A stretch of DNA of 64,000 bases from Polytrichum commune (Eukaryota > Streptophyta > Polytrichopsida > Polytrichales > Polytrichaceae), in NCBI GenBank assembly GCA_950295325.1, contig OX485807.1, forward strand, positions 2,606,501-2,670,500, given 5' to 3'. A model generated the notes under the pieces. The model saw only the letters and a program-made list of their open reading frames with translations. It did not search any database and had not been told where the DNA came from. The position numbers and the translations under genes are program-made. Of the stretch, positions 23,615-61,690 are shown piece after piece. Positions within the stretch are counted from its first letter, which is position 1; each line of letters begins with the position of its first letter.

Positions 23615-23627
23615 AACACTATATTCG
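23615..23627 (+). mobile_element. Left terminus of unit 1
   Basis: AACACTATATTCG, followed by a GAGACTTTTTGGGCATTTTG stretch. The 13-mer is identical at 52096 (unit 2) and inverted at 1306-1318 (unit 3). The flanking bases outside it differ in all three. Confidence 0.7.
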
Positions 23628-23776
23628 TTAAATTGAGACTTTTTGGGCATTTTGAGACATTCACAGAAATAAGAACAAGGATAAATGGAACACGTATTGG
23701 AGAAAGTTGTAAGATGCAAACACTTTGAAGCGGGTGTTTAGAACAAGAACCCCATTAATAACTCATATTTGGGATT

Positions 23777-23987
23777 GTTTAGGGCGGGCAATCCAAACCT
23801 TAGGCCAAGTTGAAGGGGAAATCTTAAAACATTCATATTATCGCACAAAAACTTGTATGAATATGGTTTAGGTAGGGCAATCCAAACCATAGATCATATT
23901 GAAGGGGAAATATGTGAACCAATATAATATAACATACAAAATATTCCAAACTCATATTTGTGATGGTTTAGGTAGGGCAATCCAAAC
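23777..23987. repeat. Three decayed palindromes in about 100-bp repeats
   Basis: At 23777-23798, 23866-23887 and 23966-23987: a left arm like GTTTAGGTAG, a 2-bp spacer and a right arm CAATCCAAAC. They keep the 10-2-10 geometry of unit 1 but not the inner bases. Each is embedded in a longer diverged repeat (GAAGGGGAAAT about 30 bp downstream). They lie between the unit terminus and the last coding exon. Confidence 0.5.
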
Positions 23988-24153
23988 CTTAGACCATATG
24001 GAAGGGGAAATCATGTGACACTTATATTATTGCAAAAAAAAACATACAAAGTGTGGCATGTAAAATGCATAGCATGCTAACACCACACATCCATTGGATA
24101 GTGCGACCCAAAATGTTCTTGCCTATGGCCCACAACCCTACGCCTACTATGGC

Positions 24154-24987
24154 CTATCTAGCCTCGGAGACTACCTCTTTTTCTTTTGCTTCATTTTCTT
24201 TTGCTTTTTTTTCTTTTGCCTCTTTTTCTTTTGCCTCTTTTTCTTTTGCCTCTTTTTCTTTTGCTGCGGCTTCTTTTGCTCGCATTGCTTCAACATTCCT
24301 GAAAATCTCCGCCCCGCGACTATAGCCATTCTTGGGGTGACCGCCATCAAAAACACATTTTGGATTCCGTCGGCCGCCCGAATTATACGACGAAGAATTC
24401 GAATACGATGAAGTGGACTGTCTTGCATTTCTGGTCATGGAGTAGAAACGCTCCAACTCGACGGACGCACTAGCCCGCATAGGTTTACGGGTGGGAGCAA
24501 CCTGCAACGCGTCAATGCAAGAACACATGTGTTAGTTTAGGGAGGAAGACCCAAACGTGTCACACGTTCATTTTTTAAGTGCCGGATGATTGTAATGCGC
24601 GGTTAACCATGTTTGGGGGGGGGGGGGGTTCACCTTGTCACCGGGGGCGTTCCCGTCGGAGTCGGCGAGGAGGGGCAATGCGTCCCGCAAAGGAATAGGA
24701 AGGGTGCCACTCTTCGTAGGCCGAGCGTCCATCCGCAGCCGCCGTTGAGGTGTACTACTGCCGCCGGGCCGAGACGGGGACGTCCGGACGCATTTGCGAT
24801 TTATGCCCTTGAGCGGCGACGGGGACAGAGATGGCCGGAAGATTTGCTTGGGTGGGGGGCTATCGACGACGCCAGAGTCGATAGGCTCCTTGGAGTAGTC
24901 GATGGTGGACGCGGCATCGTAGACGGTCTCGTAGAAGAAGCTCCCCAAGTTTGATTCGCTGACGATCTCAATCGAGGGCTCCAAACG
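24154..24987 (-). CDS. Unit 1 exons A1 and A2: alternative C-terminal exons, low-complexity basic tail
   Basis: A1 is 24634-24987 (118 codons, acceptor GCGCCAG, donor GTGAAC). A2 is 24154-24501 (116 codons, stop TAG). A1 is Pro/Ser-rich with VVDSPPP and SLSPSPL. A2 has TSSYSNSSSYNSGGRR, then YSRGAEIFRNVEAM and a Lys/Glu/Ala repeat (AKEKE units). Unit 2 has the same two exons with the conserved anchors NSPPP, RRLRM, SYNSG and GFSRGPEIFRAMEA. A1 starts with an acceptor only 112 bp after the FCP1-like exon's stop, too little room for a separate promoter. I infer it is spliced in phase 0 from exon B as an alternative 3' end. The function is unknown. Confidence 0.55.
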
Positions 24988-25098
24988 CTGGCGCAAAAAA
25001 GGAAACAAAACAAAACCCAAGGGGAGGGGGGAGCATGTGAAAATCGATATACAATTGAGGCATAATATATCACACACAATGGCACACCATGTAGTATC

Positions 25099-25911
25099 TC
25101 AAATGAGTTTATTATATTTCGCGTGAGCGTACAACTCTCTGTACATATAGTCCTTTGGATCCATGTATCTTTCGCCTATCGGATTACAACTAAGGAACCG
25201 GGGCACGGGTAGTCCGCTCCCCACGAGCGTTTGAATGTACTTAAGTAGGTCTAACAAAAATCGGTCTCGGACCTTCTCGACCGTCCACGTGGGGCAAACT
25301 ATGAAGTTCGAGGTCGGGTTCAAAATGTTTTTGGAAGCGCTGTCGTCCACCATCAACGTGTTGTCACGGGTGGGGCGAACGTCGTAGGGACAGCCGACCA
25401 TGGTCGGACGCTGGTACCATACGACTGGCTTCAAGACCTTAAGAAATTGGTTTACGGCGGGGTTGTTGGGCTTCTTCACAACCCTGCCCTCGGGGGTGTA
25501 TAATGTTTTACAAGAATCATGTCCTAGGACCAAGCACGGGGGTTGGAGTCCCTTGAAGATGAACTCCACGACGGCCTGGGTATTCTCGGACTTCATGGAG
25601 CTCCAAATGATCACCCACCATTTGGATAGGGCGACCTGTAGGAAGCGCCGAAGCCACGGGCGGAGGTACACTAGCTTGCTTTTGATGTACGCGGGGGGTC
25701 CATCGTAGTTGGCGTCCTCGGGCTTGCAGAAAGGCACCGTTGGGACCCTTGGACAATGCACGCACTGGACAAGGACCCCGTTGAGGTCTAGCACCAGGAA
25801 CCGGGTCTTGGGAGGCGAAGGTGGCGAGGGCAAAATCGGGGGGACCACCGCGCTGTCCTCCACACTCCTCGGAGAGGATCGGTGGGGAGCTGCGACGCTA
25901 TGCTCCGAACC
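25099..25911 (-). CDS. Unit 1 terminal exon: FCP1/NLI-interacting-factor-like HAD-fold domain
   Basis: 271 codons including the TGA stop; acceptor at 25912-25913 after a good pyrimidine tract, phase 0. HAD landmarks in order: motif I FLVLDLNGVLVQ, motif II VIIWSSMKSEN, a hydrophobic LVLGHD segment, motif III NTLMVDDSASK, then a tail ending YNKLI. In active FCP/SCP phosphatases motif I is DxDx(T/V). Here and in unit 2 it is D-L-N-G-V, so the second aspartate is absent and the usual acid/base is missing. Plant HAD proteins with DLNG exist, so this may be an inactive or altered binding domain. It is the normal C-terminus of the unit 1 protein if exon A1 is not used. Confidence 0.75.
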   Translation of the reverse strand, partial: GSEHSVAAPHRSSPRSVEDSAVVPPILPSPPSPPKTRFLVLDLNGVLVQCVHCPRVPTVPFCKPEDANYDGPPAYIKSKLVYLRPWLRRFLQVALSKWWVIIWSSMKSENTQAVVEFIFKGLQPPCLVLGHDSCKTLYTPEGRVVKKPNNPAVNQFLKVLKPVVWYQRPTMVGCPYDVRPTRDNTLMVDDSASKNILNPTSNFIVCPTWTVEKVRDRFLLDLLKYIQTLVGSGLPVPRFLSCNPIGERYMDPKDYMYRELYAHAKYNKLI

Positions 25912-26357
25912 CTGCGGCGACGAGCGAGAGAAGGCGGACGAGGACTATGTTATGCTATGTCCATCTCAAGCAGAACGGAAATTTTGTGCAAACACAAGAA
26001 GAATTGGACCATTGGTGGCAACAAAAACATACAAGGGGAACAACATACATTGGGACACGGATGCAAACATATGGGCGCCAAAAATAATAATTTTATTTTT
26101 ACAAATCTCTATGTACAATTTGATTGGGGGGGGACCGCGGTGAACGAGGGCATTCACACTACCCTAATTCTACATCTACAAAATTGGTTGCGCGCCGCCA
26201 AGGTCGAGCGTAGTCGAGTGCAGGTGAGACGAAGGGGATCGCGGGGGGGCACGTTGGGGGGAGGGGGAGCAAGTGTAGAGCATGGGGGGGGCAGGGGGTG
26301 TGCATTTCCTCCTAGCAAGGGGGACACGACCACGCCAACAAGACAATGACCCAGGAA

Positions 26358-26379
26358 GTTTGGGTCGGTCGACCCAAAC
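26358..26379. repeat. Unit 1 palindrome in the B-FCP1 intron
   Basis: Perfect arms GTTTGGGTCG and its reverse complement around the spacer GT. It lies 22 nt downstream of the exon B donor at 26401. The rest of the 490-bp intron (25912-26401) is G-rich on the plus strand with no other site. Confidence 0.9.
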
Positions 26380-26401
26380 TGGGGAGGGCTCAGTGTATTA
26401 C

Positions 26402-27889
26402 CTCGCCCTGGTCATGTCTCGACGATGTGGAAGCCTCCACCGTCCCCGCTGCCCCGCCTCTCTCGCCACCGCCTTCTCCGACGACGTCAGGAACCTTCTC
26501 CTGCAAACGATCGGCATCAGGCCCTTGTCCTAAACCAATCTCCGCATGTGCATCATGCATGCGTTCATCGATTTGGTTAGGAGTAGAGGTATCACCAGGC
26601 CCTTGCAGGCCTTCAACATCTAGCATGGCCGTGTCTAGTTGACACCCATGTTGGTCAAGGGAGGACTGCGCTGCAACGGGGTTTGGGTCGTCCGACCCAA
26701 ACTGTCCTGCATCTGGAGAAGGCCCTTCGGACACTACAGTGGATGGTGGGTTTGGGTCGGTCGACCCAAACATCCTGGGGTCGTCCGCTTGGTGAGGGGG
26801 CGCCATGACTATGGGGGGCCGAAGTGGTGGAGGGCCCAAAGGGGAGGAGGCTCCAGAGACGCGCCAGATGTTGGGGTCATCCACTTGCTGGACCGGCGCG
26901 TACGGAACTTGGTGGGGCCGAATCAAGTGCTGGAAGCTGAAAGACGATTGCGGCACAGGCTGCTGAGGGATGCTCTGCGGAGGGAAGCCGGGGGGCAAGT
27001 GCGGGAAGGAGCTGGAAGGAGCCACCACCAAACCTTGCGCCCACATTCCTTGTATCACTTGTGATATCAATTCGGCGTGGGACGGAGGTTGGGCCATCGC
27101 CCTCTGTCGCTCCTGCTCCAACAGGAGAGCCCTCAGCTCTGCTACCTCGTTCCGCATTGAGGGCTCTTCAGCGGCAGCCTTCTGCAGACGGACGCGTTGC
27201 TCCTCGTCCCTCCTCATCTTCTCGTTCGCCTCCTCCACAGTCAGGACCTCGGGCTTCACCCTAACCATGCCAGCGAACGCTGTCGGGGAGGGGGGATCTG
27301 ATCTGAGCCGTTTGGCGAGCTCAATATCATCGTCGTCCTCGCTGCTTATGGCAATGGTCTCCTCCACGGAGTAGTCGCCATACAGCTTCTTCCCCTTCAA
27401 CTTCCTGCTCTCCCTGAACGTGGCGGTCGCGTCCCTGGAGTACATGTCCCGTGCATCGTCCACAGTCAGGACGGGCACGAGCTTACTCTGCGGGGTTGCC
27501 GCCCGCATCGCCTTCTTCCGTTGAGGGGCTTCGGATTGTTGCGTGAAGCCCGTTGCCCCTTCCTCGACGTCGCCTTCCTTCTCCGCCTCCTCGTGTTCTT
27601 CTACTTCCTCCTCCTCCTCCTCAACCTCGCCACCTTCTGTGCGGGACGGATTGCCCGGATGCAACCCGACCAGAGGTTCGGGAACTTGGGTCGTGGCCCT
27701 CATGGCCATTTCCTCCGGGTTGATGCGACTCACCCTATCAAGAGGGTTTTCGCCACCCTGAACAACCTCGTCGACGTAGCTACCCGGGATCCAATCGAGG
27801 ATGTCCATCTTCTTCGCCAGCGATTTCTGCACCCTATAAAATGGCAAATCGCCATCCTCTATGTAGGAGTATATATTCAGCCCCGACAT
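26402..27889 (-). CDS. Unit 1 exon B: disordered acidic/Pro-rich linker with coiled coil
   Basis: 496 codons, phase 0 at both ends, acceptor TTGTGTAG at 27890-27891, donor GTAATA at 26401. It opens with a short ordered piece (SGLNIYSYIEDGDLPFYRVQ), then acidic runs (EEEEEVEEHEEAEKEGD). A conserved TIAISSEDDDD motif looks like a SUMO-interacting motif. A heptad-like segment follows (EQRVRLQKAAAEE, RALLLEQERQRA) and then a long Pro/Gln-rich tail. Unit 2 has the same order (IIEVSDEDEGD, then LTVSELNAKLEAKM). Two palindromes fall inside the coding sequence and are translated as VWVDRPKL-frame or FGSTDPN-type peptides. It probably acts as a flexible scaffold between the enzyme-like domains. Confidence 0.7.
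26681..26771. repeat. Two unit 1 palindromes inside coding exon B
   Basis: 26681-26702 (spacer TC) and 26750-26771 (spacer GT), both with perfect 10-bp arms. They are translated in frame as FGSDDPN and FGSTDPN, so the palindrome has been tolerated as protein sequence in the disordered tail. Confidence 0.9.
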
Positions 27890-27963
27890 CTACACAATCC
27901 AAGTTATAGGGAAATTAGAATTTGTCGAGGCAGTCACATATACAAGACTAAGTGAAATGTGTA

Positions 27964-28021
27964 GTTTGGGCCGGTCGACCCAAACCTGCAAAGAGCCTAG
28001 TTTGGGTCGATTGACCCAAAC
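27964..28021. repeat. Two unit 1 palindromes in the C-B intron
   Basis: 27964-27985 (one arm mismatch, spacer GT) and 28000-28021 (one arm mismatch, spacer AT). They lie in a 160-bp intron (27890-28049). The second is 28 nt from the exon C donor. Confidence 0.88.
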
Positions 28022-28049
28022 TGCTTACGAGCTATAGAAAGTCACTTAC

Positions 28050-29381
28050 CATAGCAGCATAGACAGGTTTTGAGCCTCCGAAGACGTTGAAGATGCAGTC
28101 CCCTCTCCTCGTCAGCGTCCTCATCATTCTCATGTAAAATTCCATCCGTAGCTCATCTAAAGGATAGTTCGCGTATTTAGCCTCGTCGTAGAGGCACTTG
28201 TTGGCACCCAACCCTTCTGGAACTTGGAAGAGTTTGTCCATCCGGGATATAGGGTGGTTCGGCACCTTCAGCAACTCCGCTTTGTACACGAAGTACAAAC
28301 ACAAGACGTTGACGAACTTGGTCTTCTTGTCCCTCAACGTCGTGTAAGCCCCCTCCGCCGGTGCGGCGATGTAGTGAGACTTGGAGACTGCATACTCCGG
28401 CTGCAGTTTCCGGACAAGCTCGTACACCTGCTCCGCCCTCCTATCCTCGACTATCCAAAGCCAGATATCTACCTCCCTGAACTTAGGGCTTGCATAATCG
28501 ACGAACTTAGATAGGAAGGGGTCATAGAAGAGGGTGCTCATTGTGCCCTCAAATGAGCTTCCAGGAATATTCCTGAAATCAATCATCCCAAAAGGAAAGC
28601 GGTCCCTTGCTTTCGTCCTTATCGCCATTCTGGCGTCCTGACCTGGCCAGCCCTGAATTTTCAAAGGCTCGAAGGTGACAAGGTTGAAGTACGCTTCCCC
28701 TTCAAACTTGACAATCTTCTTCTCCTTGATGAAGTTCGAGAACGCACGCGCTGTGTGATCCGGAAGCGCCCGGTTCTTCCCACCCTTCACCATCTTGGCC
28801 CGCAAGAAGTCGTCCCCCGCTTCCCTTATTAGAGCCGCCATGGAGGCACTGGTGAACTTATATTCATCTTTGAATGCTCTCCAGTTAGCCTCATGGACCT
28901 CGCCGTCCACGACAATATTCCTCTCTGGCACTAGTTTATGCAGCTCCTGCACGATAGTCGTCTTCTTTTTCCTGTTCTCCGTCCATTCCTTCATGGTGTA
29001 GCATGAAGGAATGAAGGATTTGGGCTTTTGGAAGACAATCTTCGGGTGCACCCAACACCTCTTCGCCGTGGGTGCCACGTGCAGGATGTGCGATGCCGCC
29101 TTCTCCACCTCCGTCTCTGACAGCCCTTGAAGAGTTCTAAAGAACTCTCTCACGAGAGGCTTCATCTGCTTGAAGCGCGAGGCCAGGCAAAAGAAAGCGC
29201 TAGTGTCGGGGTCAATCAAATCCCCCGTCTCGTGCTTTTCAAACACGGTTTTCCACTTCCTCCAAACTGAGTCCGATGCTGTAATCAAGTAAATCTCCCC
29301 CTTGAGGTCGCTGTATTTCTTTTGCTTGTGGCTCGAATTATCAATGGAGGAAAATTTGTTGATCATTTGGTATTTGAAATC
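28050..29381 (-). CDS. Unit 1 exon C: resembles a degenerate beta-class DNA methyltransferase
   Basis: 444 codons, phase 0, acceptor CACGTGCAG at 29382-29383, donor GTAAGT at 28049. The C-terminal stretch RRGDCIFNVFGGSKPVYAAM is built like the GD-VLD-F-GSGTT-AA (motif X/I) end of N4/N6 beta-class methyltransferases. Upstream, FPFGMIDFRNIPG occupies the place where DPPY/W (motif IV) would be. It is followed by FYDPF and by DIWLWIVEDRRAEQ, similar to the strand after motif IV. Unit 2 keeps IDFRGIPG and YNVCGGSKFMYAAM. The catalytic DPPY is thus replaced in both copies, so activity is doubtful. The N-terminal 200 residues are not recognised. The family assignment is inference from motif order and could be wrong. 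Confidence 0.6.
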
Positions 29382-29471
29382 CTGCACGTGAACAAAACAG
29401 AACATTTGAATGCGTGTTAGATATGTACATGTGATTTCCAAACCATATCATGACCAACATCTACAACAAGA

Positions 29472-29589
29472 GTTTGGGTCGATCGACCCAAACTAAAAAA
29501 ACACACAAGACTGCAACAGTTGTTTGGGTCGATCGACCCAAACTAAATAAACAAGGCTGCACCAGGAGTTTGGGTCGGTCGACCCAAAC
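29472..29589. repeat. Three unit 1 palindromes in the D-C intron
   Basis: 29472-29493 (spacer AT), 29522-29543 (spacer AT) and 29568-29589 (spacer GT), all with perfect arms GTTTGGGTCG. The intron is 29382-29598. The last site is 9 nt from the exon D donor. Confidence 0.93.
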
Positions 29590-29598
29590 AATACTCAC

Positions 29599-30924
29599 CA
29601 CCCACTTGGGATTCTTGTCCTTTGCATTCTCCCTCTCCTTGGGAGGCCTACCATAGAACTCCCACACCTCCCGCGAGGCCATGATATTCCTTATCCAGGA
29701 AGCTTGGTAAGCCCTCTTCTTGTTTCCCATATTGAAGTACCGGGAGATGTCGCTGAGCTTGGTCTCGTCGTCAGACCACACCACCAGTGCCTTCCAAACC
29801 TTCAGCTTTTCCTTCTGATTGTTGGGATCATCCCACTCATTCATGAGTTGGATTTTCTTGGATGCCTCCACGCTGTGTTGGCCGTCTATCAGCCAAAAAT
29901 CGCCCTTCTGAATTGTTGGCCACATTTCAGGTGTAGGCATTTTCTTGAGACCCTGTGGCATCACTACAATTGTTTGCCTGTCGTCTTTAAACTGCTCGCA
30001 AACGATCTGCGCGATTATCCAGTCAACGTAGGCGTCCTCCTTTGCCCGGACACACTTCTCCGGTGGCGCTAGATGGCACTGGCTGATGTTCACGTCGAAC
30101 TTGAAATCCCTGCCCATGAAAAAACAGTGGGAGCATTTCGTCGTGAAATTGTTCACAATTTTCTGCAGCTCCCCTGCATCCACCTCTTCGCCTGGCTTCG
30201 GCATGCGCATCTCCGGTGAGACTGGCTCGTCAGTCATCACAGATGACTCTCTCGCCCTCTTGGATGGAGTTGTTTGACGGCTCCCAGAAGGTGTAGGTGT
30301 CTCACTATTCGTAGGTGTTTGGGAGGGAGTGGTCCTACGCGAGTCAGCCGGTACTGGTAGCGGCATCCTCACCGATTGAGGTCTTGACGACCCTGCTCCT
30401 TCCTCTGTGGGAGCTTTCCGCCTCACAGGTTGCTGTGATTTGGTTTTGCTTTGCAGGCCCCTGTTCAACACGGTTATTGCATGTTTTAGTTTTGTGAACC
30501 GGCTTGAGACCTTGGTATTCGATGTACTCCCATCGATAAATATTGTCTCCGGCTTGATAACTTCCGGTTCGACACAGGACTCTCTTGCATAGAGTGCGTC
30601 GAAAGGCTCGGAGAACTGGTGCATGAACATATGCGCGTTCTACACAGCCGAGTTCTCGAGGATGACGTCGGTATAGTCTCCAAGAGACTGTACCGATGCG
30701 ACCTCCCATCCCGCAAGAGTCGCCCAGGTGTGTTTCTCCACGGTTCCCACCTTGACAACAAAAATCATTTTGTATGTTGAGGCTTTGACTACTTGAATAG
30801 ACCAAGCGAGGACAAGCCCGTCCTTAGGGGAATAGGAGTCATCCTGCGGGGTTTCGTGCTCCTGCCACAACATGTCCGGCGCAGGCATGAACCACCTTTC
30901 GCCGGGTCTTTTCTTTGGAGCCAT
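29599..30924 (-). CDS. Unit 1 exon D: ParB/DGQHR-like domain, carries an in-frame stop
   Basis: 442 codons from the ATG at 30924, which directly follows an acceptor (TTTTCTTACAG), to donor GTGAGT at 29598. Near residue 347 it reads GDFWLIDGQHSVEAS, matching the DGQHR/ParB signature (I-DG-HR). It is preceded by VVMPQGL and followed by LSDISRYFNMGNKKRAY, which resembles the Asn-containing stretch after that motif. In ParB-type proteins this fold binds CTP or acts as a nuclease and works with palindromic sites. The middle is Ser/Pro/Thr-rich (TPSQTPTNSETPTPSGS). A TAG stop at 30640-30642 interrupts the frame after about 94 codons; unit 2 has no stop there. Unit 1 may therefore be inactivated, or depend on readthrough or a downstream start. 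Confidence 0.65.
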
Positions 30925-30950
30925 CTGTAAGAAAATAATGTGCAAGGTTA

Positions 30951-31399
30951 GTTTCGGTCGTTCGACCCAAACATCTATGACATGAATAGGTTTAGGTGGA
31001 TTGTGTATTTTTATATTTCAGCATCATTTGTAATGATAATAAGAATGTTGTGATTATTGGGTGGATTTGCATTTTATATTGTTTGTGACATGCAGGATTC
31101 CTTGATACTTTTCCTTGATACATTCCTTGATTATTATTTTGGGTTGATGTGAATTTTATATTGATGCAAAATATCATGGATTTCTTTATGAGTTTATAAT
31201 TAGAAGACTTTGTTTGGGTCGCTCGGCCCAAACATGATGCTTTGTTTTGTGTTTGGGTCGAGCGACCCAAACAAGGGGCTGTGTTTGGGTCGGTCGACCC
31301 AAACAAGAGGCTGTGTTTGGGTCGGTCGACCCAAACAAGAGGCTGTGTTTGGATCGGTCGACCCAAACAATAGGCTGTGTTTGGGTCGTCTCCCCAAAC
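30951..31399. repeat. Palindrome array in the 5' leader intron of unit 1 (7 sites)
   Basis: Sites at 30951-30972, 31212-31233, 31251-31272, 31283-31304, 31315-31336, 31347-31368 and 31379-31399. The last five start exactly 32 bp apart, with a 10-bp linker close to AAGAGGCTGT, so this part is a tandem array. Spacers vary (TT, CT, AG, GT, GT, GT, TC) while the arms stay GTTTGGGTCG with 0-2 changes; the final copy lacks a base. They lie in the predicted intron 30925-31517, upstream of the start codon. Confidence 0.92.
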
Positions 31400-31517
31400 A
31401 GTATTATTTTAATATATTTTTTAAACTTGGCATGTAGCATATACAATGCTTATGCATTGTGTATGCTACAACACCGTGAATCTACAAACACATATTGGTT
31501 AAAATAAAATACAATAC

Positions 31518-31920
31518 CTTTCAAAGATGTTGTGCAGACAATTTGGAGTAGAGCAGGTTGTTCTTCCAATAATTCTCAATATCAAACAAACTGTGAGAAA
31601 GTTCAATGAGAAACTTTCAAACAACTATCAACTCTCTCAAACAGCTCTTGGATCTCTCAACCAACTCCTGAATCTCACACAGAACTACTGAATCTCTCAA
31701 AAGACTTCGAAATGTCTAAACCAACTCCTGAATCTCACACACAACTACTGAATCTCTCAAAAGACTTCGAAATGTCTAAACCAATTCCTGAATCTCACAC
31801 ACAACTACTAAACCTCTCAAAAGACTTCGAAATGTCTAAACCCACTCCTGAATCCCTCACAAAACTACTGAATCTCTCAAACGACTTCGAAAACTCTCAA
31901 ACAACTCTTGATACTCTTAA
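31518..31920 (-). promoter_or_regulatory. Unit 1 leader exon start and repetitive promoter region
   Basis: A donor (GAAAG then GTATTG) at 31517 suggests a 5' non-coding exon rightwards from 31518; unit 2 has a similarly placed donor at 60290. At 31641-31920 a 60-bp unit is tandemly repeated about four times (AATGTCTAAACC, CTCCTGAATCTCA, CTCTCAAAAGACTTCG). The short ORF through it (31712-32161) is a by-product of the 60-bp period. No clear TATA box was found. The transcription start is not defined. Confidence 0.4.
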
Positions 31921-32343: not shown

Positions 32344-32399
32344 AGAATGAAAAAATGTGACGGTTGGGGTTTTGTTTGCCTCGGGAATTGGCCCCCAAC

Positions 32400-52447: not shown

Positions 52448-53484
52448 TTAGGGAGTCCGTCCCACTAGTACGCTTCTAGTCACACTAGTCCGACCCACTA
52501 TTTTTTTTTTTGCGGCTAAGTCCTTTTTTTTGGCGGCCTCCATGGCTCTAAAAATCTCAGGCCCACGACTGAATCCTTGTGTGTTGCCTGGATAGGAATA
52601 TGTGTCGTTCTTGCATGTTTCAGGACGCGCTCCCGAATTGTACGAGGTGGTATTATAAGTAGAATACGAGGGCGTTTGCGAAAGGGAACGTCTTGCGCTT
52701 CTCCGGAGGGCCAGACATCGATCGGACTCGGAAGATGCGGCCTTGAGGGCGTGCCTATCCAAGGAGGACGTGGAGGAGGGCCGGGCACCAAGCGAGCGGG
52801 TAGCCACCTGCGAAACAACGTCATAGGAAGATAAGAATAGGAATGGAGTGGGGAAAATAATGAGGGCGGTTTGGGATGGGCGCTCGTAAAGAGAACGGCA
52901 CGCAAACGGAAGACAAGGAAAGCAAAAGCGGGAAAGGGGTTTAGGGTTGAGGAGGGCACCTTGGATTTGGGGACGTCCATGCGGGGAACGGTGGGAACGA
53001 AGGGGGCGTCGACGGGAGCATCCGGAGCCGATGGAACTATTGCAATGTTGGATGGCGGGGGGGAGTCGAGGCGTGGAGGGCCCACGATCGCGGAGGACGT
53101 TGCGGGGGGAGGAACGGAGTCGGCGGGGGAGGTGTGGCAACGGGGGCCTTCCATGCGGAGACGGCGGCTCGGCCCGTGACGAGCGACGGCGTCGTCCCTC
53201 GAGGGCGAGAGGTGTCCCAAACGAACGAGCGTCCGTTTCTCCTTGGAGAGGGGGGAGGGCGACGGGGCGTACGCGCGGGGGACAAGTGCTGGGGGCGGGC
53301 TGTTGACGACGCCATCGTCGATGCCGACGTCGCAGGAGTAATCCACGGCCGAGGCCGCGTCGACCGCCGAGAAGTGGTAGAGGGATGGCATTTGGAAGTC
53401 CGTGACGTCGCGGGAAGGGGATGCGGGGAGCGAGAGGGGACGGGAAGAGCCGTCGACCACAGGGGCGTCGCATATGGGGGCAGA
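52448..53484 (-). CDS. Unit 2 exons A1 and A2: alternative C-terminal exons
   Basis: A1 is 52960-53484 (175 codons; acceptor CCCATAG, donor GTGCCC). A2 is 52448-52807 (120 codons including TAA; acceptor TTTCGCAG). Conserved with unit 1: VNSPPP, SPSPL, RRLRM in A1; TTSYNSG, GFSRGPEIFRAMEA and a Lys-rich tail in A2. A1 is GC-rich and Pro/Ser-rich. Its acceptor is 111 bp after the FCP1-like stop, as in unit 1. I infer alternative splicing from exon B in phase 0. The function is unknown. Confidence 0.55.
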
Positions 53485-53595
53485 CTATGGGCAAGAACAA
53501 CAACAACAACAATCACAACAACAAAAGACATCCAAAAACGGGGCAAGCATTAGATATGTGAACCACATGATAACAAGCAAAGACATGGAGGCATT

Positions 53596-54363
53596 TCAAA
53601 TCAATTTATTGAGTTTGGCGAGCCTCATGATGCTCTTATATACATTATCGCGGGGGCTTAGCGCCGCATTGCCGAAGGGGTTGGACCTAACAAAAAATGA
53701 GATGCTACCGGCGTGGAGCACGAGCCTTCTAAGGTAGGGGGCCAGCCTATCGACCAAAAAGGTGTCTTGCCTATCGCCGGTCCAAGTGTCCGGGAAGATG
53801 ACGTTGCCCGGGGGGTTCAACACGCTCTTGGTGGGACTGTCGTCGATGAGGAGGGTGTTCTCAGGAGTCGGCCACCACCCGTGGGGCGTCCCCTGCAGAC
53901 GGGGGACGCCTTGCCAGAGTCTTGAGCGGAGGACCTTGAGGAACTGTTGTCCTCCGCCTCGACCGCCAAACTTGGGCACCGGTTGGCCCTTCTCGTCGAG
54001 CAGCTCGTCGCATTCCTCTTGGCCGAGGACGAGGCAAGGGCGCGGGAGATCACGGAACAAGAAGTCGACGATGGGCTCCGTGTTGTCCATGACCATGGAG
54101 CTCCACACAACGACGTGGGCGAACTCGACCACCTCGCAAAGGAAGTCGTGCAGGCCAGGACGGGCGCGGACAGCCTTGCGGTTTATGAGGGTGTCGAGCT
54201 CGCCGTCATAGTCCCTTTCGTCGGGGTGACGGAAGGGACGCGTGGGAACCCTGGGGATGTGTTGGGTGTGACACAAGACCCCGTTGAGGTCAAAAACTAT
54301 GAAAGGTTTGTTCCGGGTTCGAGGTCCACTGGTCGAGGGGTTGCGACCTATCTCCGGGGGGTC
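53596..54363 (-). CDS. Unit 2 terminal exon: FCP1/NLI-interacting-factor-like HAD-fold domain
   Basis: 256 codons including the TGA stop, acceptor CATCACAG at 54364-54365, phase 0. There is no start codon before the domain, so it must be spliced from exon B. HAD landmarks: FIVFDLNGVLCH, VVVWSSMVMDN, LVLGQEE, NTLLIDDSPTK, then the tail LAKLNKLI shared with unit 1. As in unit 1, motif I lacks the second Asp of DxDx(T/V). The IDDSP stretch matches the motif III region of FCP/SCP proteins. It is probably a catalytically altered HAD domain. Confidence 0.78.
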   Translation of the reverse strand, partial: DPPEIGRNPSTSGPRTRNKPFIVFDLNGVLCHTQHIPRVPTRPFRHPDERDYDGELDTLINRKAVRARPGLHDFLCEVVEFAHVVVWSSMVMDNTEPIVDFLFRDLPRPCLVLGQEECDELLDEKGQPVPKFGGRGGGQQFLKVLRSRLWQGVPRLQGTPHGWWPTPENTLLIDDSPTKSVLNPPGNVIFPDTWTGDRQDTFLVDRLAPYLRRLVLHAGSISFFVRSNPFGNAALSPRDNVYKSIMRLAKLNKLI

Positions 54364-54495
54364 CTGTGATGAACAACGCGACTAGTTTAATTCTATGATC
54401 CAATAATGAAATTTTTGCGTTCAAAATAAAGACGATGCATTATGGGAAAAGAGGAGGAAGTAAGGAGGGTTCAAGGAAATATGCACAAGGGCACA

Positions 54496-54958
54496 ATTGC
54501 GAACGAGCGTTCGTGAATGAAGGCTGCGGGGGCGGTGCGCATCATTTACGAACGCTCGTTCGTGAGCGCGGATGCATACATATACGAACGCTCGTTCGCG
54601 AAGGAAGTCGAGAGGGGGTCGCACAGTTTTACGAATGAGCGTTCGTGAGTGAGGTGTGTATGCAAAGAATGCAAAGACGCGCAAGAGCACAGACAACACA
54701 AGACGCGAGAATATGCAATAAGTTGTGGTGATGCGAGCAGAGATCGTCTGCTCATATATTAATTCGGTGAATATGTACAATTGTCTCGCGTGATAATCTA
54801 TCAAAATTTCCTAAGGAAAAAATTCAGTGTCCTACAAAATTGATCGGCCCAAGGGATCACGTAGAAAAAGGCTCGCGCGGGCAACGTGGTGTCGATGGAG
54901 TTGAAGCGCCAAGAACACAACGCGGGGGTTAGTGATGTTACGAACGCGCGTTCGTAAA
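54496..54958. repeat. Five unit 2 palindromes in the B-FCP1 intron
   Basis: 54496-54517 (AG), 54545-54566 (CT), 54581-54602 (CT), 54628-54649 (AG), 54937-54958 (CG); spacers in brackets. Arms are TTTACGAACG and its complement with 0-3 changes at the outer ends. The intron is 54364-54986; the last site is 28 nt from the exon B donor. Confidence 0.9.
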
Positions 54959-54986
54959 ACATTTGGCATTCTCAGAGATGAGTTAC

Positions 54987-56390
54987 CTCTTTGGTTAACG
55001 AACGCGCGTTCGTAATATCCATTGGGGCAGCAGCCTCTGGATCCATGACCTCCGCCGGACGCTCCGCCTGAGACGACTGGGTCTGTTGGATGAGCTCCAC
55101 GTCGTCGTCCCCGCCCAGGTCGAGTCTCTCCATGCGGACATCCTCCATGTGCGCGGATGGATGTCGTTCCTGTTCAGGGCTCTCCACGACCATCCCACGC
55201 GGACCTGCCGAGTCATTGGGGCTCCCCTGCGTTTCCTCCACAATGACCATGTCAGTGTGTTGCGCAGTGTCATCGCCCCTCCTATCTACAACCCTTGGGA
55301 CGACGGTGAAAGAGGTCGTGTCCGTGTCTGTGGGCAGTCCTACCCTTGAAGGGGGAGGGGTGAGGACTGCCGGACCTGAAGATTCACGAACGCGCGTTCG
55401 TAAATCTTCATCCTCCCTTAGCGCCGCCGTGATTGCATCGTGGGAGGTTGAGGCGGTCGCCGTCACCTCCGGGGGCAATGGACTTCCCGCCAGCGTTGGG
55501 TGTGGCGCTGTTTGGTGGGAAGGCCCTCCTTGGTACATGACTGGAGGTGGGGGCTGTGAGGGGTATCCTCCAGGGGGGAAGGGGTAAGGTTGCTGGACCG
55601 GCGCAGAGAAGCTCTGCATGTTTCTGAGCATCTCGAAGATGGCGTCAGTTTTGGCCGCTGATTCCCTCAGCTGCTCTTGCAGCCTGGCCAGATGTTTGGC
55701 GCTCTCCTCCTGGGCTGCAGCCATCTCCTCCTTCATCTTCGCCTCCAGCTTGGCGTTGAGCTCAGAGACGGTAAGCGCCTCCTCCTTCACCCGCTTGTTC
55801 TTGTCGTAGTCCACCCCAAGCTCGGCCATGATGTCCATGTCCCCCTCGTCCTCGTCGGAGACCTCGATGATTGCTCCCGGCGGCAACTCCACGTAGGGAG
55901 TCTTCTTCATCCTCCTCCTCGTGTTGCGGAAGAGGTCCAAAGATGGACGCGAGCGTTGGTCGAGGATGTCCAGGGTTTCCATCTTCGGAACCACGGCGGG
56001 CCTTGGAGACTGTGACGTCGAGCATCCGCCTGGCGTTCCGAAAGGCTCCGCAAGAGACGTTCGCGCGGGGAGGAGGTCCAGGGTTGTCCCCGCGGACGAC
56101 CCTGTATAACCACCCGGAGTCCCTTGAGGGTCGGGAAGATCTGTCGTTGGCGGCAAGATCCGAAGCGGGGGTACATCGAAGGACTGCAGAATGGCGTCCA
56201 CGTTGGCGGAGGGGGCGGGCTCGTCGTCCTCTGAATCGTGGAGTGGTATGCCCTCGTCGGCGGGCATACTGAAGTCCATCCTTGGGACAGAGATGTCCTT
56301 GAGGTCCATCGTCGACGCCTTCGCACGGTGGAACTTGAAGTCTTCTTCGTCGATAGCGTCAACGAAGGTGTTGACTACGAGACCCATCAT
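54987..56390 (-). CDS. Unit 2 exon B: disordered acidic/Pro-rich linker with coiled coil
   Basis: 468 codons, phase 0, acceptor TCTTCTCACAG at 56391, donor GTAACT at 54986. It starts MMGLVVNTFVDAIDEED. It then has Pro/Asp-rich segments, GAIIEVSDEDEGDMD (a textbook SUMO-interaction-like hydrophobic-acidic motif, also present in unit 1), a clear heptad-type segment (SELNAKLEAKMKEEMAAAQ, then HLARLQEQLRESAAK), and a long Pro/Gly tail. Two palindromes are translated within it (LRTRVRES and ITNARSL). It is the least conserved exon between units apart from the motif order. Confidence 0.7.
54995..55404. repeat. Two unit 2 palindromes inside coding exon B
   Basis: 54995-55016 lies 8 codons from the exon end and 55383-55404 in the middle of the exon; both have the spacer CG. 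Both are read in frame without stops. Confidence 0.88.
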
Positions 56391-56418
56391 CTGTGAGAAG
56401 AGAGCAATAAGGTCAGAA

Positions 56419-56594
56419 AATACGAACGCACGTTCGTAAACATCAAAGCGTGGCGTGCAACGAGTTTCAAGCATTACATTACGAAGGGGGTTATGTTTAC
56501 GAACGAGCGTTCGTAAACATCAATGCGTCACGTGCAGCGACTTTGAAACAATGCGTTGAGAAGTTGGTTAACTTTACGAACGAGCGTTCGTAAA
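56419..56594. repeat. Three unit 2 palindromes in the C-B intron
   Basis: 56419-56440 (spacer CA), 56496-56517 (AG), 56573-56594 (AG), spaced 77 bp apart, so two of the intervals are identical. Short similar text (AACATCAA-GCGT-ACGTGCA type) accompanies them. The last lies 19 nt from the exon C donor. Confidence 0.92.
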
Positions 56595-56613
56595 TGGAGT
56601 CTGGACAACTTAC

Positions 56614-57939
56614 CATGGCCGCATACATGAATTTGGAGCCTCCACATACGTTGTATACCGTCTCTCCACTTATAACCAGACTCTGCAATATAGAGACGTA
56701 GAACTCCATCCTGAGTTCCATGGCGGGGAAGATGGTGTAGAGGGTCTCTTGCAGCAGATCCTTGGGAGGGGGATGCGGGATGCTGTAGATTTTCTTGAAC
56801 GTGTTGTTCGCCTTGATAGGCGGTCGCCCATCCCTAAGCTCATTGTACGTCAAGAAAATCAGGCTGACCGCTCCCACTTGCTTGTTGCCCCTGGCCTCGT
56901 TGATGGCCACGATCCCCTCCGTCTTCGCTGGCACGTACGTGCTGTGGAAGATGCTGTACTCGAATTTGATCTTCTGCTCGTACAGCTCTGTGACGACCGA
57001 CAGCTTCTCCTGTTCGACTATCCACAGCCAAACGTGTGGCTCCCTCATGGCCGGCGATTTGAACTCCATGAACTTGGCCATGAAGGGGTTGTAGAAGGGA
57101 ATGTCCTTCCCCCCCTGCCTTGACGCACCCGGGATCCCCCTGAAATCGATCAGGGCAAAAGGGCAACCCCGTCGATCGTCCCTCACCTCGGCCCTGCTTA
57201 TGGTGCCGTCCCACTTGGAAAATGTGACCCTCTCCACGCCGGAGGTCATCACGCAAAACCTTGCCACCCCTTCGAATGTGGCGTTCCTCTTCCTCTCCAA
57301 AAATTGTATGTACAACATTACCTCGTGGGGATCCGTGTCGGTTTTCTTAGTCCTTTTGTTCCCCTTCAACTTCAAAACCGAGGCGTGCTCCTTGACCAGA
57401 CTGCGCATGGAGGCTCCGTTGATGTTGTAGTCGACCTTTAACAATTGCCATTGCGGCCAGTTGATGTCGCCGTCGACTTCAAAGATTTTGTACTCTGGTG
57501 CGAGTACGCTCAATTCTCTCATGGCAGCAGTCTTCAGCTTCCGGTGGTCACACCACTCCTTGATAGAGTACGTGTCGGGCTTGTGCTTTGGCCTCTTCAA
57601 AAAGATCTTGGGATAGGGAAGGTTTCTTCCCACGGTGTTCCCAAGAACATGAATCGCACACCTCTTCAGCTCTGACTCCGTCAATCCCTGGAGGTGTCTA
57701 AAGAACTCCCTCAGTAGTGGGGACGCCTCACCGGTTTTTTCCGTGCTGTACTTCTCCTCGGTGTCGGGATTGACCAAATCGCCCGAGCTGTGTGCATCAA
57801 AAAACTGTGTCCACAAGTCCCAGGTGTCCCTGTTGCAGTAGATCAGTCTGAGCTCACCCTTCAGCTCAAGCACTGACTTGGTGGTGGTGGACTTCATATC
57901 GATGGAAGAGAACTTGTCTACCATCGCGTCGCAAAATGC
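56614..57939 (-). CDS. Unit 2 exon C: resembles a degenerate beta-class DNA methyltransferase
   Basis: 442 codons, phase 0, acceptor at 57940-57941 (TTTGTGCAG), donor GTAAGT at 56613. It aligns along its length with unit 1 exon C: DKFSSID, LKGEL, FFRHLQGLTESE, KIFLKRPK, KEWCDHRK, PFALIDFRGIPGAS, FYNPFMAKF, VWLWIVEQEK, ELRMEFYVSIL, YNVCGGSKFMYAAM. The last motif sits where beta-class methyltransferases have F-x-G-x-G. IDFRG sits where DPPY would be, so the catalytic tetrapeptide is replaced. The role may be DNA or nucleotide binding without methylation. Other fold assignments remain possible. Confidence 0.62.
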
Positions 57940-57970
57940 CTGCACAAAACAAGATGTCAGTGTTGCACAT

Positions 57971-58050
57971 AATACGAACGCACGTTCGTAAATTGAGTAT
58001 GTAACTGAAGTTTTCATGAATCTAACACTTTACGAACGTTCGTTCGTAAA
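57971..58050. repeat. Two unit 2 palindromes in the D-C intron
   Basis: 57971-57992 (spacer CA) and 58029-58050 (spacer TT). The intron is only 116 bp (57940-58055), so the two sites fill over a third of it. The second overlaps the last base of the GTGAGT donor. Confidence 0.93.
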
Positions 58051-58055
58051 CTCAC

Positions 58056-59348
58056 CTTCCATTGGGGAGACTGGTTCTTGGCGTTCTCCCTTTCCTTTGG
58101 TGGGCATCCGTGTGCCACCCAGACGTCTCTGGCAGCCACTATGTTAGCCGCCCACGAAGCCTCGAACGCCTTGATTTTGTTCCCCGAGTTCAGGAAGGTT
58201 GAAATCTTGCGCAGCTTGTCCCAATCGTCCGACCAGACCAAGAACGCCTTCCAGTATCGCAGGTCAGCCTTCAGCTCGTGCTGGAAGTTGTCGTCCTTGA
58301 GGATCTGTTGCGACGCCTCCAAGCTGTGTTGACCATCTATAATCCAGAATTCTCCATTCTGGATTCGCGGCCAATCCACCTCTGTCGGTCGGGATGTCAG
58401 CCCCTTGGGCATGACGCAGACTGTCTGTCTATCCCACTTGACGTTATTCATGAGGTTGTTTATCTGCCACTTCACCCCACCGCTCTCGCGAGACCTTACC
58501 ACCCACTTGTTGGGTGACTTTTCGCACTTGAAGCAGTCCACGTTGAACGTGAAGTGGCGCCCCATGGGCCAGCAATCCTTCGAGTAATTATTGAAATCTC
58601 GTAGGATCTTCGTTGCCTTCACCGCATCTGGATTCTCACCCTTCTTTAAAGGGGTTGGCATCACGGGAGGAGAGCTCACCTCAGCGCCCTCTGTTACCCC
58701 AGACCTCTCCATTTCGTCCCGGGACCTCTTCGATGGCGTGGAATGTCGGTTGGGACCCTCCGTCACCCTGCTCGCGGAAGGCACCGGCTTGGGTGCACTT
58801 CTCGATCCTCCTGCCCCGGATGCGGATGGTTTCCGTGGGCTCTTCTTCTTCTTGTTGGCTTCCGCGACCGCGCTATTGTACTTGGAGATATTCAAGGAGA
58901 GCGCGGCCAACTTCCTTGCTGTCCAGTACGAGCTCAGGGCGTACTTCGTGAAGAGGTCCTTGAGGAAGTGTTTGGCATCAGCCACTACGTTATTTTCCGC
59001 GTATGTGTAGGAGAAACTATGTCTCCTGTACTCTAACAATAGGTTAATGTGATCCTTCTTGTTTTTCATGTCTAGAATCACATAATCTCCTTGTGCCTCA
59101 ATTGATTCTACTTCCCAAGTCTTCATCTGCACCCATTGCTCTGGCTGGTCCGGCGTCGTTTCCAGCTCGTATGTGAAGCGAAGACAGAAAAGACCGTCTG
59201 ATGTCTTCTCTGGCAGTGCCGTCCATTCCCCTATGAAGTCCTCTTTGGGGACATAATTATCGTTTCCGTTGGGGTCGGACACTGACTCTGGTAGTTGATC
59301 TATCTGCACTGCGAACATCTCAATGGCGCTTCTGCTCGGTCTGGCCAT
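58056..59348 (-). CDS. Unit 2 exon D: ParB/DGQHR-like domain, intact
   Basis: 431 codons from the ATG at 59348, which directly follows an acceptor (TGCTCTGCAG), to donor GTGAGT at 58055. The N-terminus (MARPSRSAIEMFAVQID) leads into a beta-rich region with WEVESIEAQGDYVIL, equivalent to WEVASVQSLGDY in unit 1. A Lys/Ser/Pro-rich linker with a possible nuclear signal (NKKKKSPRKPS) follows. At residues 335-345 it reads WIIDGQHSLEA, the DGQHR/ParB-like signature, preceded by VCMPKGL and followed by RKISTFLNSGNKIKAF. In ParB-type proteins this motif region binds nucleotide. No in-frame stop, unlike unit 1. Candidate reader of the unit 2 palindromes, by inference. Confidence 0.7.
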
Positions 59349-59378
59349 CTGCAGAGCACATAAACATTTAGTATTGTG

Positions 59379-59946
59379 TTTACGAACGAGCGTTCGTAAT
59401 TGACAAAGCAAATCATATACACTAATCATTGAACTCTGGCTATGGATACCCGTGAGAAGTTGTAATGATGTCTTCGCTGATTTCATTTACGAACGATCGT
59501 TCGTAAAGAATGTGGTTGCTAAGGTGTATTTGACACAAGTTTACGAACGTGCGTTCGTATTGTTTCTAAACAAGTCCACGAGTTGTCCAGGGTTATCTAA
59601 TTTCCACGAGGGTTGTTCGAATTTCCATGAGCATCTTCTAAATAGGTGAATTAATACTTTAGTTCTTATTTACGAACGTGCGTTCGTAAATAATGCTACT
59701 TGGAAATGCAGACAATTACCATGAAGGGTTTGGTATATTGTTATAGTTTGTGATTACGAACGTTCGTTCGTATTTTTGTATGTGTAATTGGATTTGAGGA
59801 TTTTCTGATGTACAGGGTATAGACGAATATACGAACGTGCGTTCGTAAAAATGGAGGGTGAGGTGCGTATTTACGAACGCACATTCGTATATGTTTGTGG
59901 GGTAAGGCATGTATTCACGCCACATTTACGAACGAACGTTCGTAAA
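59379..59946. repeat. Palindrome cluster in the 5' leader intron of unit 2 (8 sites)
   Basis: 59379-59400 (AG), 59486-59507 (AT), 59539-59560 (TG), 59669-59690 (TG), 59753-59774 (TT), 59828-59849 (TG), 59870-59891 (CA), 59925-59946 (AA). In the last one the arms extend to 15 bp (59920-59951). They lie in the predicted leader intron 59349-60290, matching the position of the unit 1 array. Confidence 0.92.
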
Positions 59947-60290
59947 TGTGGTCATCTGGGATTAGGAAATGGTATATTTATTTATGTACATATATATCCG
60001 TACATATACGTATACATATACGTATACATACGTATGAATGTTGGTATGAATGTTGCAATCTGCCATTGTTCATGATCCTGCAACTCGTGATCAGATTGAT
60101 GAAACACAAGTGAAAAATGGAATCAGAACAAAATTGCGAGTCAGTGATTGATAGTTCAGAATGAAGAGGAAAGTGTTATTTCATACAAAACATGACATAC
60201 CTCATAATGCAGAAAACAAATCACAAGGAATTCATCAAACAACAATTTCAGATTGTGAAGGAGTGATTTGTAAAGGAAACCTGTACTCAC

Positions 60291-60360
60291 ATTGAATTGT
60301 TGCACACAAATCCTCCTGCCTTCACTTTGTCACACTCTCAATCCTTCACAACTTATATGC
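60291..60360 (-). promoter_or_regulatory. Unit 2 leader exon and possible TATA box
   Basis: On the minus strand a consensus donor (AATTCAAT then GTGAGTACAG) at 60290 ends a predicted 5' non-coding exon. CATATAAG at about 60351-60360 lies at a suitable distance upstream to act as a TATA box. The transcription start would be near 60325. This is inference from motifs only. Confidence 0.4.
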
Positions 60361-60392
60361 AAATCCTACACAAACCCTGATGTACACAACTC

Positions 60393-60670
60393 ACAAGCTT
60401 CACAAAACTCAAGCTTTCTGAAGCTCTCAAGCTCTCAAGCTCTCAAGCTTTCTGAAACTCTCAAGCTCTCAACCTCAAACTCAAGCTCTCAAGCTTTCTA
60501 AAACTCAAGCTCTCAAGCTTTCTAAAACTCTAAACCTCTCAAGCTTTCTAAAACTCTCTACCTCTCAATCTTTCTAAAACTCAAGCTCTCAAGCTTTCTA
60601 AAACTCTAAACCTCTCAAGCTTTCTATAACTCTCAACCTCTCAACCTTTCCTACTCTCAAGCTTTCCTAT
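60393..60670. repeat. CTCTCAAGCTTTCTAAAA repeat upstream of unit 2 gene
   Basis: Tandem degenerate units of ACTCAAGCTCTCAAGCTTTCT with periods of about 18-30 bp. It occupies the position of the 60-bp CTCTCAAA repeats upstream of unit 1, and the core CTCTCAA is common to both. Confidence 0.75.
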
Positions 60671-60899
60671 TCTCAAGGTTCTGACAACACAACAAAACAA
60701 CATTCACAATGAGGCTCTAAAATTGGCAAGGGCTTCGCCGCACCTAAGAGCTCCTCTCCTCCTCTGCTCCAAATGACAAATGAGGAGGAGAGAGAGGGGC
60801 GCGGGGAGGTAGCCGGCGCCGCTAGGGTTTCCAAGCGGCGGCCACGTGGCTAGTGGCCACTGGCGAGGGCTGGGATGGGGGAGGGGGATGGTGTCGCGC

Positions 60900-61690
60900 A
60901 CCTCTCCATGAGGAGTGCCCGAAACACCATGGGCACAAGGGGGACCCCGGAGTGACACCCGGGACTTGTGGCGCCGTTGGTGAGAGGGCCCAAGTTATCC
61001 TAGTGTGGGTGAGGGCCCCAGGCGTTGGGAACGCCTCCCACCCACGGAGACTAGGAGGCACAAGGGTAAGGCCATGAGCTATGCGTAGCTCATGGCGTGG
61101 TGATTCTAGGAAGCTCAAGATCACCTCAAGCGGAGGTGTGAGCTAGGAGTTATGGCCACTTGAGTGGGGCGCTGTCCCGGGACAGCGCCCTGGTACAGCA
61201 GTGCCTGGGAGTGATTCCCGGGACTGCCAAGGTTCAAACAGGCATAATGTCGTCAATACTTGCCTGAATGGGGCAAGTGAGGCGTCCATCGGCATCTATG
61301 TGAAGCGTAGATGAAGATGGAGTGGTCGCTTGTTAGTATGAGACATCATACAAGGATGTTATGATGGTCTGAAGCTGCTGGGGGCTTCTAGGCCCAGCGG
61401 CTAAGGGAAAGTGTCCACTCGGCCCCAACTCTTGGTGGAGAGACAAGAGGTTTGTTGACGGTGGGGTAGGGGCCCCGCGTGAAGTCCTAGAGGCTTATAT
61501 GGGTGAGGTGGTGTGGCCTCACCCACCCGGAAGTCCACATTGGGGAAATGGGTTACCGATTAAGGGGTGAGTCCCGAAAGCAAAGTAGGAGGGTTGGTTC
61601 CCTCCTATGAACTATTGGTCCGGGGTAAGAGGAGCTATCCATTAGCATGGCGGAATGCGAAGGGTTAGCGCTCGTAACCTTTGCTAGAAA
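60900..61690. other. GC-rich non-coding block with inverted repeats
   Basis: No gene recognised. It contains a perfect 24-bp palindrome at 61167-61190 (arm GGGCGCTGTCCC), an inverted repeat at 61072-61095 (arm CCATGAGCTA, 4-bp loop), and several CCCGGGAC-type motifs. Confidence 0.5.

Follow-up and report, generated by a model that had tools for sequence, protein, structure and literature searches.

We analysed a 64-kb window of the Polytrichum commune genome (C5:2606501-2670500, "the window" below) and found that it contains two units, unit 1 and unit 2, which belong to one family of DNA transposons with terminal inverted repeats (TIRs) and which each carry their own family of short palindromes. 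The two families have the same geometry, with two 10-bp arms around a 2-bp spacer (10-2-10). The arms are conserved between copies whose surroundings have diverged, as under constraint, and the type of palindrome follows the clade of the gene that lies beside it. By analogy with known anti-silencing systems, this pattern may reflect an element-encoded dimeric DNA-binding factor that co-diverges with its palindromes and protects its own element from silencing, a reading to which we give about an even chance. Further loci fetched from the same assembly carry L numbers.

A sequence-only reading of the window had counted 15 palindromes in unit 1 and 20 in unit 2, and both counts were reproduced by a scan of the window. 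The unit-1 arm GTTTGGGTCG, with a 2-bp spacer, was found at 15 sites with at most 2 mismatches (9 exact), and the unit-2 arm TTTACGAACG, with the same spacer, at 20 sites with at most 3 mismatches (6 exact). That reading had also found neither type in the other unit, and this is borne out in the window even at up to 5 mismatches. Six extra unit-1-like sites with 4-5 mismatches lie at 1016, 23777, 23866, 23966, 24092 and 24535. A search for any 10-2-10 inverted repeat with at least 9 of 10 positions paired gave 35 in the window, 10 of them outside both families, compared to a chance level of 2-6 in each of five second-order Markov shuffles of the window. The spacer, described earlier as varying freely, nearly does so, with 12 and 13 of the 16 possible dinucleotides present among the exact sites of the fetched loci; however, GT accounts for 7 of the 15 spacers in unit 1 of the window. 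Most sites lie outside open reading frames (ORFs), 13 of 15 in unit 1 and 18 of 20 in unit 2, and ORFs make up 5,895 of 9,686 bp and 5,889 of 8,795 bp of the two units, respectively. Judging from splice sites read by eye, the arrays before the gene probably sit in an intron of the 5' untranslated region (5'-UTR).

Across the 407.8-Mb assembly, the exact 22-mers occur 9,231 times for unit 1, 2,909 times for unit 2 and 1,147 times for a third lineage, unit 3, that is described below, and a reversed-pattern control gave 0 in each case; for 20 fixed bases in 408 Mb, simple arithmetic predicts far fewer than one by chance. The unit-1 arms are found only twice genome-wide at spacers of 3-8 bp, the range counted besides 2, compared to the 9,231 occurrences at a spacer of 2. 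When unit 1 of the window was compared with four other copies, 177/180, 175/180, 156/160 and 176/180 arm positions were identical (97-98%), whereas the 20-bp flanks were 54-59%, the spacers 38-56% and the sequence elsewhere 77% identical. Nine of the 15 unit-1 window sites fall within the aligned stretch; all 9 are partnered in L065, L079 and L083, and 8 of them in L080. Because nearly all aligned sites are partnered, the arm identity is not an artefact of picking retained sites. The sites inside the exon-3 ORF behave in the same way: their arms match at 39-40 of 40 positions in all six other copies, and in the four diverged copies (40/40, 40/40, 40/40 and 39/40) the 60 nt on each side are only 58-62% identical (84-91/146) and the remaining exon 77-79%. 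When unit-2 copies were compared two at a time, identity was 95-100% in the arms and 55-97% in the flanks, varying with distance. Within copies, the changes in the arms were one-sided in 7 and 26 cells and two-sided in 0 and 1 (units 1 and 2), and this ratio of 33 to 1 argues for two half-sites rather than an RNA hairpin.

The genes of the two units are exon-for-exon paralogues in the same order, as had been claimed, with identities of 39% in exon 1, 37% in exon 2, 26% in exon 3 and 41% in an ORF for a NIF-type phosphatase fold. Variants of the TIR hinted at further lineages, which allowed co-divergence to be tested as a prediction, and a third lineage was reached through one of them (TTG type, L157). 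Its site, TTTACGGACG-NN-CGTCCGTAAA, again has the 10-2-10 geometry and differs from the unit-2 site by one base per arm, and its exon 2 is 54% identical to that of unit 2 and 38% to that of unit 1, so that the closeness of the sites follows the closer kinship of the genes. The unit-3 palindrome is present in all five copies examined; the four beyond L157, two each from clusters at 81-85% and 74-75%, have the same type with TTTACGGCCG variants. On C1 up to 37.1 Mb, among the matches listed, 6 of 7 unit-3 site clusters have a unit-3 exon-2 match no more than 10 kb away, and all 6 exon-2 matches have a site cluster. A degenerate fourth type, L165, has an exon 2 that is 63% identical to unit 2 and, read by eye, partly out of frame, and it carries TTTATGAACG-type sites twice and TTTACGAACG once. 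Among loci with a TTT-type TIR, L164 is a unit-1 copy, and L162 and L163 have neither a unit gene nor a palindrome of these families.

We assigned types to the sites of 23 copies that carry the gene, including partial ones, at up to 4 mismatches, and added L084 as a 24th. All 10 unit-1 copies carry type A only (204 sites), all 8 unit-2 copies, including L165, carry type B only (174 sites), and all 5 unit-3 copies carry type B3 (27 sites), with 4 ties and 1 stray B site also in L157. Thus 23 of the 24 copies have the site type of their clade, one of them with a stray site, and one is siteless. In a tree of 13 exon-2 rows, each site type occupies one side of a branch, with the minimum of 2 label changes. 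Because near-copies cluster easily, we place the weight on the way in which site distance agrees with protein distance, and on the independently found third type. The earlier proposal that gene and sites co-diverge is upheld by the 23 copies, the third lineage and the tree; the strict privacy that went with it finds no support, as described below. Taken together, the pattern points to lineage-specific proteins, each of which would recognize mainly the DNA of its own lineage.

Both complete copies that we found are bounded by a 28-bp TIR and flanked by 4-bp target duplications. The unit-1-type copy (C1:2112817-2129768) is about 17 kb long with the duplication ATAA, and the unit-2-type copy is 9.5 kb long with TATG. 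All 7 aligned copies have a sharp left boundary next to flanks that are unrelated; it reads AACACTATATTCG and lies at 23615 in unit 1 and at 52096 in unit 2 of the window. A search with the 28-bp pattern, allowing four free positions and at most one mismatch, found 1,015 forward and 1,048 reverse matches genome-wide and none for the control. The likeness of unit 1 to two other copies continues to 35361 and stops there; the opposite TIR was not found within the window, and the half with the divergent second gene was not seen in the window's unit 1. From about 60891 onwards, unit 2 is broken by sequence that is also present elsewhere. Unit 1 starts at 23615, with its TIR; unit 2 starts at 52096, and its similarity to other copies does not stop at 60900, the earlier bound, but continues to the window end.

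The complete unit-1-type element also contains a second gene, in the opposite direction, and one of the two ORFs of this gene matches DUF7869 (E 2e-41), the only match among the three partner-gene ORFs scanned. The DUF7869 domain occurs in transposon proteins, and on this basis the gene is likely the transposase; nothing on DUF7869 was found in the open-licence literature. One palindrome array of the complete element stands between its two genes. At up to 3 mismatches, the distances between the outermost sites and the ends of the element are 2.7 and 3.8 kb in the unit-1 element and 0.9 and 0.8 kb in the 9.5-kb unit-2-type element, and the former distances favour a role in expression over one in cutting the ends.

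The gene half contains a multi-exon gene on the minus strand (Table 1). Exon 1 is free of stops in two of the seven unit-1 copies read (L065 and L083). Genome searches with exon 2 scored the best 95 of 1,170 candidates as copies (unit-2 exon 2), and the best 96 of 1,182 and 95 of 1,231 in the other searches. The two NIF ORFs score 51.2 and 59.8 bits against a Pfam cut-off of 21.8. In place of the catalytic DxDx they read DLNGVL, with DLNG in 5 of 5 copies examined, so that the transposon-borne ORF possibly encodes a catalytically impaired C-terminal domain (CTD) phosphatase fold. The DLNGVL motifs lie at 25774-25800 and 54277-54303, and a DDS motif is retained. For exons 1 and 2, no convincing family was found in Pfam, PHROGs or NCBIfam, the best PHROG match of exon 1 being a family of unknown function (E 0.0041). 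PDB sequence searches with the ORFs gave nothing convincing (best E 0.034), and single-exon searches of IMG/VR, GTDB genomes, plasmids and phages returned no relatives. Exon 1 matches the PHROG for ParB at E 0.16, and a profile comparison with ParB-like families, which singled out the motif that also stands out by eye, gave P 0.09 with 1 of 20 shuffles scoring higher; its DGQHS aligns at best with the DGFHR motif of the ParB-like protein YbdM, a relationship that is not significant. The end of exon 2, which reads GGSK..YAAM by eye, was aligned by hhalign to methyltransferase motif I of the relatives of E. coli YhdJ, again weakly (P 0.07-0.08, 2 of 20 column shuffles higher), so that a methyltransferase origin is a lead and no more, and there is no DPPY at the place expected for motif IV of a class-beta methyltransferase, where most alignment rows read DFR.

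Table 1 Features of the two units in the window, and unit-1-type arrays at other loci (numbered within each locus).
Feature	Position	Strand	Remark
Unit-1 TIR, gene-3' end	23615..23642	+	boundary common to 3 other unit-1 copies
Unit 1, gene half of TIR transposon	23615..33300	-	from comparison with other copies
Two further unit-1 ORFs	24157..25098	-	homologous to ORFs in 52448-53512
Unit-1 NIF (FCP1/SCP-like) phosphatase-fold ORF	25099..25944	-	Pfam PF03031, E 1.5e-13
Unit-1 palindrome	26358..26379		just beyond exon-3 ORF, in a probable intron (donor judged by eye)
Unit-1 exon 3, low-complexity ORF	26390..27889	-	
Two unit-1 palindromes	26681..26771		inside exon-3 ORF
Two unit-1 palindromes	27964..28021		exon 2/exon 3 intron
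Unit-1 exon 2, 444 aa, orphan domain	28050..29381	-	
Three unit-1 palindromes	29472..29589		exon 1/exon 2 intron
Unit-1 exon 1, motif IDGQHS	29614..30924	-	one in-frame stop in window copy
Six unit-1 palindromes	30951..31368		before start codon, probable 5'-UTR intron; last four 32-bp spaced
Degenerate unit-1 palindrome, 2 mismatches	33254..33275		in repeat of terminal region
Unit-2 TIR	52096..52123	+	from comparison with other copies
Unit 2, gene half of TIR transposon	52096..64000	-	reaches window end
Unit-2 NIF phosphatase-fold ORF	53596..54381	-	PF03031, E 3.3e-16
Four unit-2 palindromes	54496..54649		between NIF ORF and exon 3
Three unit-2 palindromes	54937..55404		54995 and 55383 inside exon-3 ORF
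Unit-2 exon 3, low-complexity ORF	54972..56390	-	
Three unit-2 palindromes	56419..56594		exon 2/exon 3 intron
Unit-2 exon 2, 442 aa, orphan domain	56614..57939	-	
Two unit-2 palindromes	57971..58050		exon 1/exon 2 intron
Unit-2 exon 1, 431 aa, motif IDGQHS	58056..59348	-	
Eight unit-2 palindromes	59379..59946		before start codon, probable 5'-UTR intron
Unit-1-type arrays beside element X	L062 3248-3459; L073 2256-2437, 7611-7988; L166 428-513		
Unit-1-type arrays	L063 876-993; L064 3307-3424, 5746-6029		

Some further features of the window touch the transposon family and its surroundings. At 1318, on the minus strand, there is a further TIR end of the same family that faces lower coordinates and marks a third element. 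Within unit 1, the terminal region is directly repeated (23620-23802 and 33097-33279, 186 columns, 80% identical), and the repeat holds degenerate unit-1-like sites. The stretch 37933-45303 resembles a long terminal repeat (LTR) retrotransposon, with repeats at 37933-38201 and 45033-45303 and, by eye, a gag-like ORF at 38158-40251; fragments of the LTR-like repeat recur at 51741-52095, adjoining the unit-2 terminus.

In the mechanism that we propose, each unit would correspond to half of a long TIR element whose two genes point away from each other. One of these would encode DUF7869, as seen outside the window. The other, multi-exon gene would encode an orphan two-part protein (exons 1-2) followed by a disordered region and a NIF/FCP1-like domain, the latter in the same or a second transcript. 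The 10-2-10 palindromes are the predicted sites of the element's own homodimeric protein, most likely the exon 1-2 protein, which would read each 10-bp arm at a fixed 2-bp spacing; such a homodimer would explain the geometry, the free spacer, the independence of the arms and the replacement of sites between lineages. Sites would be retained where the sequence tolerates them, that is, in introns, in the intergenic region between the two genes and in the low-complexity exon. The protein may load along the element and maintain active chromatin and transcription there, in the way that VANC acts on VANDAL21. If factor and sites are selected together they should co-diverge, and each lineage would then activate mainly its own copies. 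The sequences themselves show the geometry, the conservation of the arms, the match between sites and clades and the TIR-element setting; binding by a protein, the identity of the binder, its dimeric state and the anti-silencing effect are what we infer. A more elaborate version is a long shot: the protein would load at the palindromes as a ParB-like clamp, perhaps spreading along the element, and would be joined to a domain of methyltransferase origin and to a CTD-phosphatase fold that has lost its phosphatase activity and engages RNA polymerase II, so that the whole element is kept open. Each lineage would have replaced the site specificity in its turn, and an unrelated element would recently have picked up the same sites so as to ride on the system.

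Several observations weigh against an element-encoded anti-silencing factor. No DNA-binding domain was recognized in the ORFs scanned, and the transposase could itself be the binder. With the sites masked, the observed/expected ratio of noncoding CpG is 0.51-0.59 in the units and 0.48-0.62 around them, so that the units resemble their surroundings and show no sign of having been hypomethylated over the long term. In unit 2, just 10 of 13 window sites are partnered in L076, the sole unit-2 copy compared across the whole stretch. L084, a unit-1-type copy in which only the NIF ORF was recognized, has no site at 3 mismatches, and the unit-1 terminus does have unit-1-like sites nearby, degenerate ones with 4 mismatches at a distance of 0.2-0.4 kb. 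The clade-specific sites could also be partly inherited along with the copies, as near-copies would cluster any label. Furthermore, the expectation that the unit-1 22-mer would be confined to copies of the unit did not hold, since 23 of the 100 exact sites listed lie in stretches that lack the unit gene (L062, L063/L064 and L073).

In L062 and L073 these sites form unit-1-type arrays, mostly with a 32-bp period, between the ORFs of an unrelated element, here called X, and their linkers are unlike those of unit 1. Element X has a weak SWIM match (E 0.076) and at least 93 close copies (the best 93 of 3,367 candidates were scored). In the 600 bp upstream of the X exon, an array is present in one of six further copies (98% identical) and in none of the five at 91-93%, so X has gained or lost the sites recently and does not depend on them. 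Such a recent change would suit an element that exploits the unit-1 factor, and it would also suit a host factor. Two other palindrome families occur near unit-1-type sites: GGTGTCTCGG-TA-CCGAGACACC in L063 (5479-9948, mostly with a period of about 138 bp), and CCCTGTGCGT-TA-ACGCACAGGG in L063 (467-639) and L073 (5776-7374, there with a period of about 64 bp). We considered both as further lineages and rejected them because their TA centre is nearly constant and the fetched stretch contains no unit gene.

The palindromes might instead be sites of the DUF7869 transposase or of an accessory transposition factor, similar to the subterminal repeats bound by TNPA in maize Spm, which we regard as unlikely but as a serious candidate. 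A complete copy does combine TIRs with a DUF7869 gene, the degenerate sites close to the unit-1 terminus would suit such a role, and because the sites and both genes travel together, co-divergence would look alike. However, the outermost well-matched sites are set in from the ends, at the distances given above for both elements, and sites stand in the introns and the exon-3 ORF of the other gene. Alternatively, host transcription factors could bind, with the transposon lineages gathering sites for different host factors for the sake of their expression. We consider this rather improbable. The unit-1 sites with unrelated linkers in element X (L062, L073 and L166) could then be explained by one factor that serves two element types, but X does not need them, as most of its further copies lack them in the 600 bp fetched, and the three site types track the clades of a single gene in the 23 copies, with site distance matching protein distance.

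Three further explanations are less probable still. Tandem arrays with periods of 32, 35, 64 and 78 bp, whose length varies among copies, and the sites beside another element are what a repeat spreading by tandem duplication and gene conversion would produce without any bound protein, yet orthologous single sites survive 23% divergence with their arms nearly unchanged and their spacers and flanks scrambled, and other spacings are almost absent. A conversion tract should bring the spacer and flank along, which makes such spreading quite doubtful as the explanation. That the sites are RNA hairpins for splicing, processing or small-RNA formation is very improbable: most do lie in probable introns, but their arms change one-sidedly, a 2-nt spacer gives no proper loop, and the complete element has an array in the stretch that separates its two genes. 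Serine recombinases also use a 2-bp core at the crossover, and it is by geometry only that the palindromes resemble sites of a serine-recombinase-like enzyme; the ORFs scanned contain no recombinase domain and freely varying cores would not recombine with each other, which leaves this reading close to negligible.

Sequence-specific anti-silencing by transposons is known from few elements. If the Polytrichum family is a second, unrelated case, the strategy arose more than once. A single genome here offers at least three lineages in which proteins can be paired with their sites, and its natural sites number in the thousands and keep a rigid geometry; if the proposal is true, protein-site co-evolution would be directly testable and the family would offer new orthogonal 22-bp DNA-binding specificities.

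We found no description of this element in the open-licence literature, and nothing relevant there on links between ParB and transposons or on bryophytes. The palindromic sites and, at best, the DGQHS/DGFHR alignment recall ParB/parS; unlike that system, the element has no recognized ParA-like ORF and is not a plasmid. TNPA of the maize Spm/En (CACTA) element attaches to short sites that are repeated within the element encoding it, and is reported to act against methylation of that element, but TNPA sites are subterminal, whereas here there is a 4-bp duplication and no TNPA relative among the ORFs scanned. VANDAL elements are Mutator-like, and no counterpart of a Mutator-like transposase was found among the three partner-gene ORFs scanned here, of which one matches DUF7869; the duplication is 4 bp. 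VANC proteins have DUF1985/DUF287, neither of which was found in a Pfam scan of nine window ORFs. The statement that no plant system has this arrangement was nevertheless too strong, as the sequence-only reading half conceded, because the VANDAL21/VANC anti-silencing system of Arabidopsis follows the same logic (PMC5735166, PMC10398659). VANC21 binds a short motif that lies in noncoding parts of VANDAL21, both in introns and in intergenic and terminal stretches, and its action leads to loss of methylation; VANC targets evolve as tandem repeats that differ between related elements (PMC5735166). The VANC21 motif is the 9-base YAGTATTAY and not a 10-2-10 palindrome, and binding and methylation loss, predicted here, are demonstrated there (PMC5735166). 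Like the VANDAL system, the Polytrichum family has clade-specific, element-borne motifs in introns and upstream regions, mainly in the noncoding parts of the element, with tandem amplification, a motif and a gene that diverge together between related elements, and a separate (here probable) transposase gene in the element. Membership of the VANC family fails on the protein domains and the transposase, and the likeness, as read from the sequences compared here, is one of logic.

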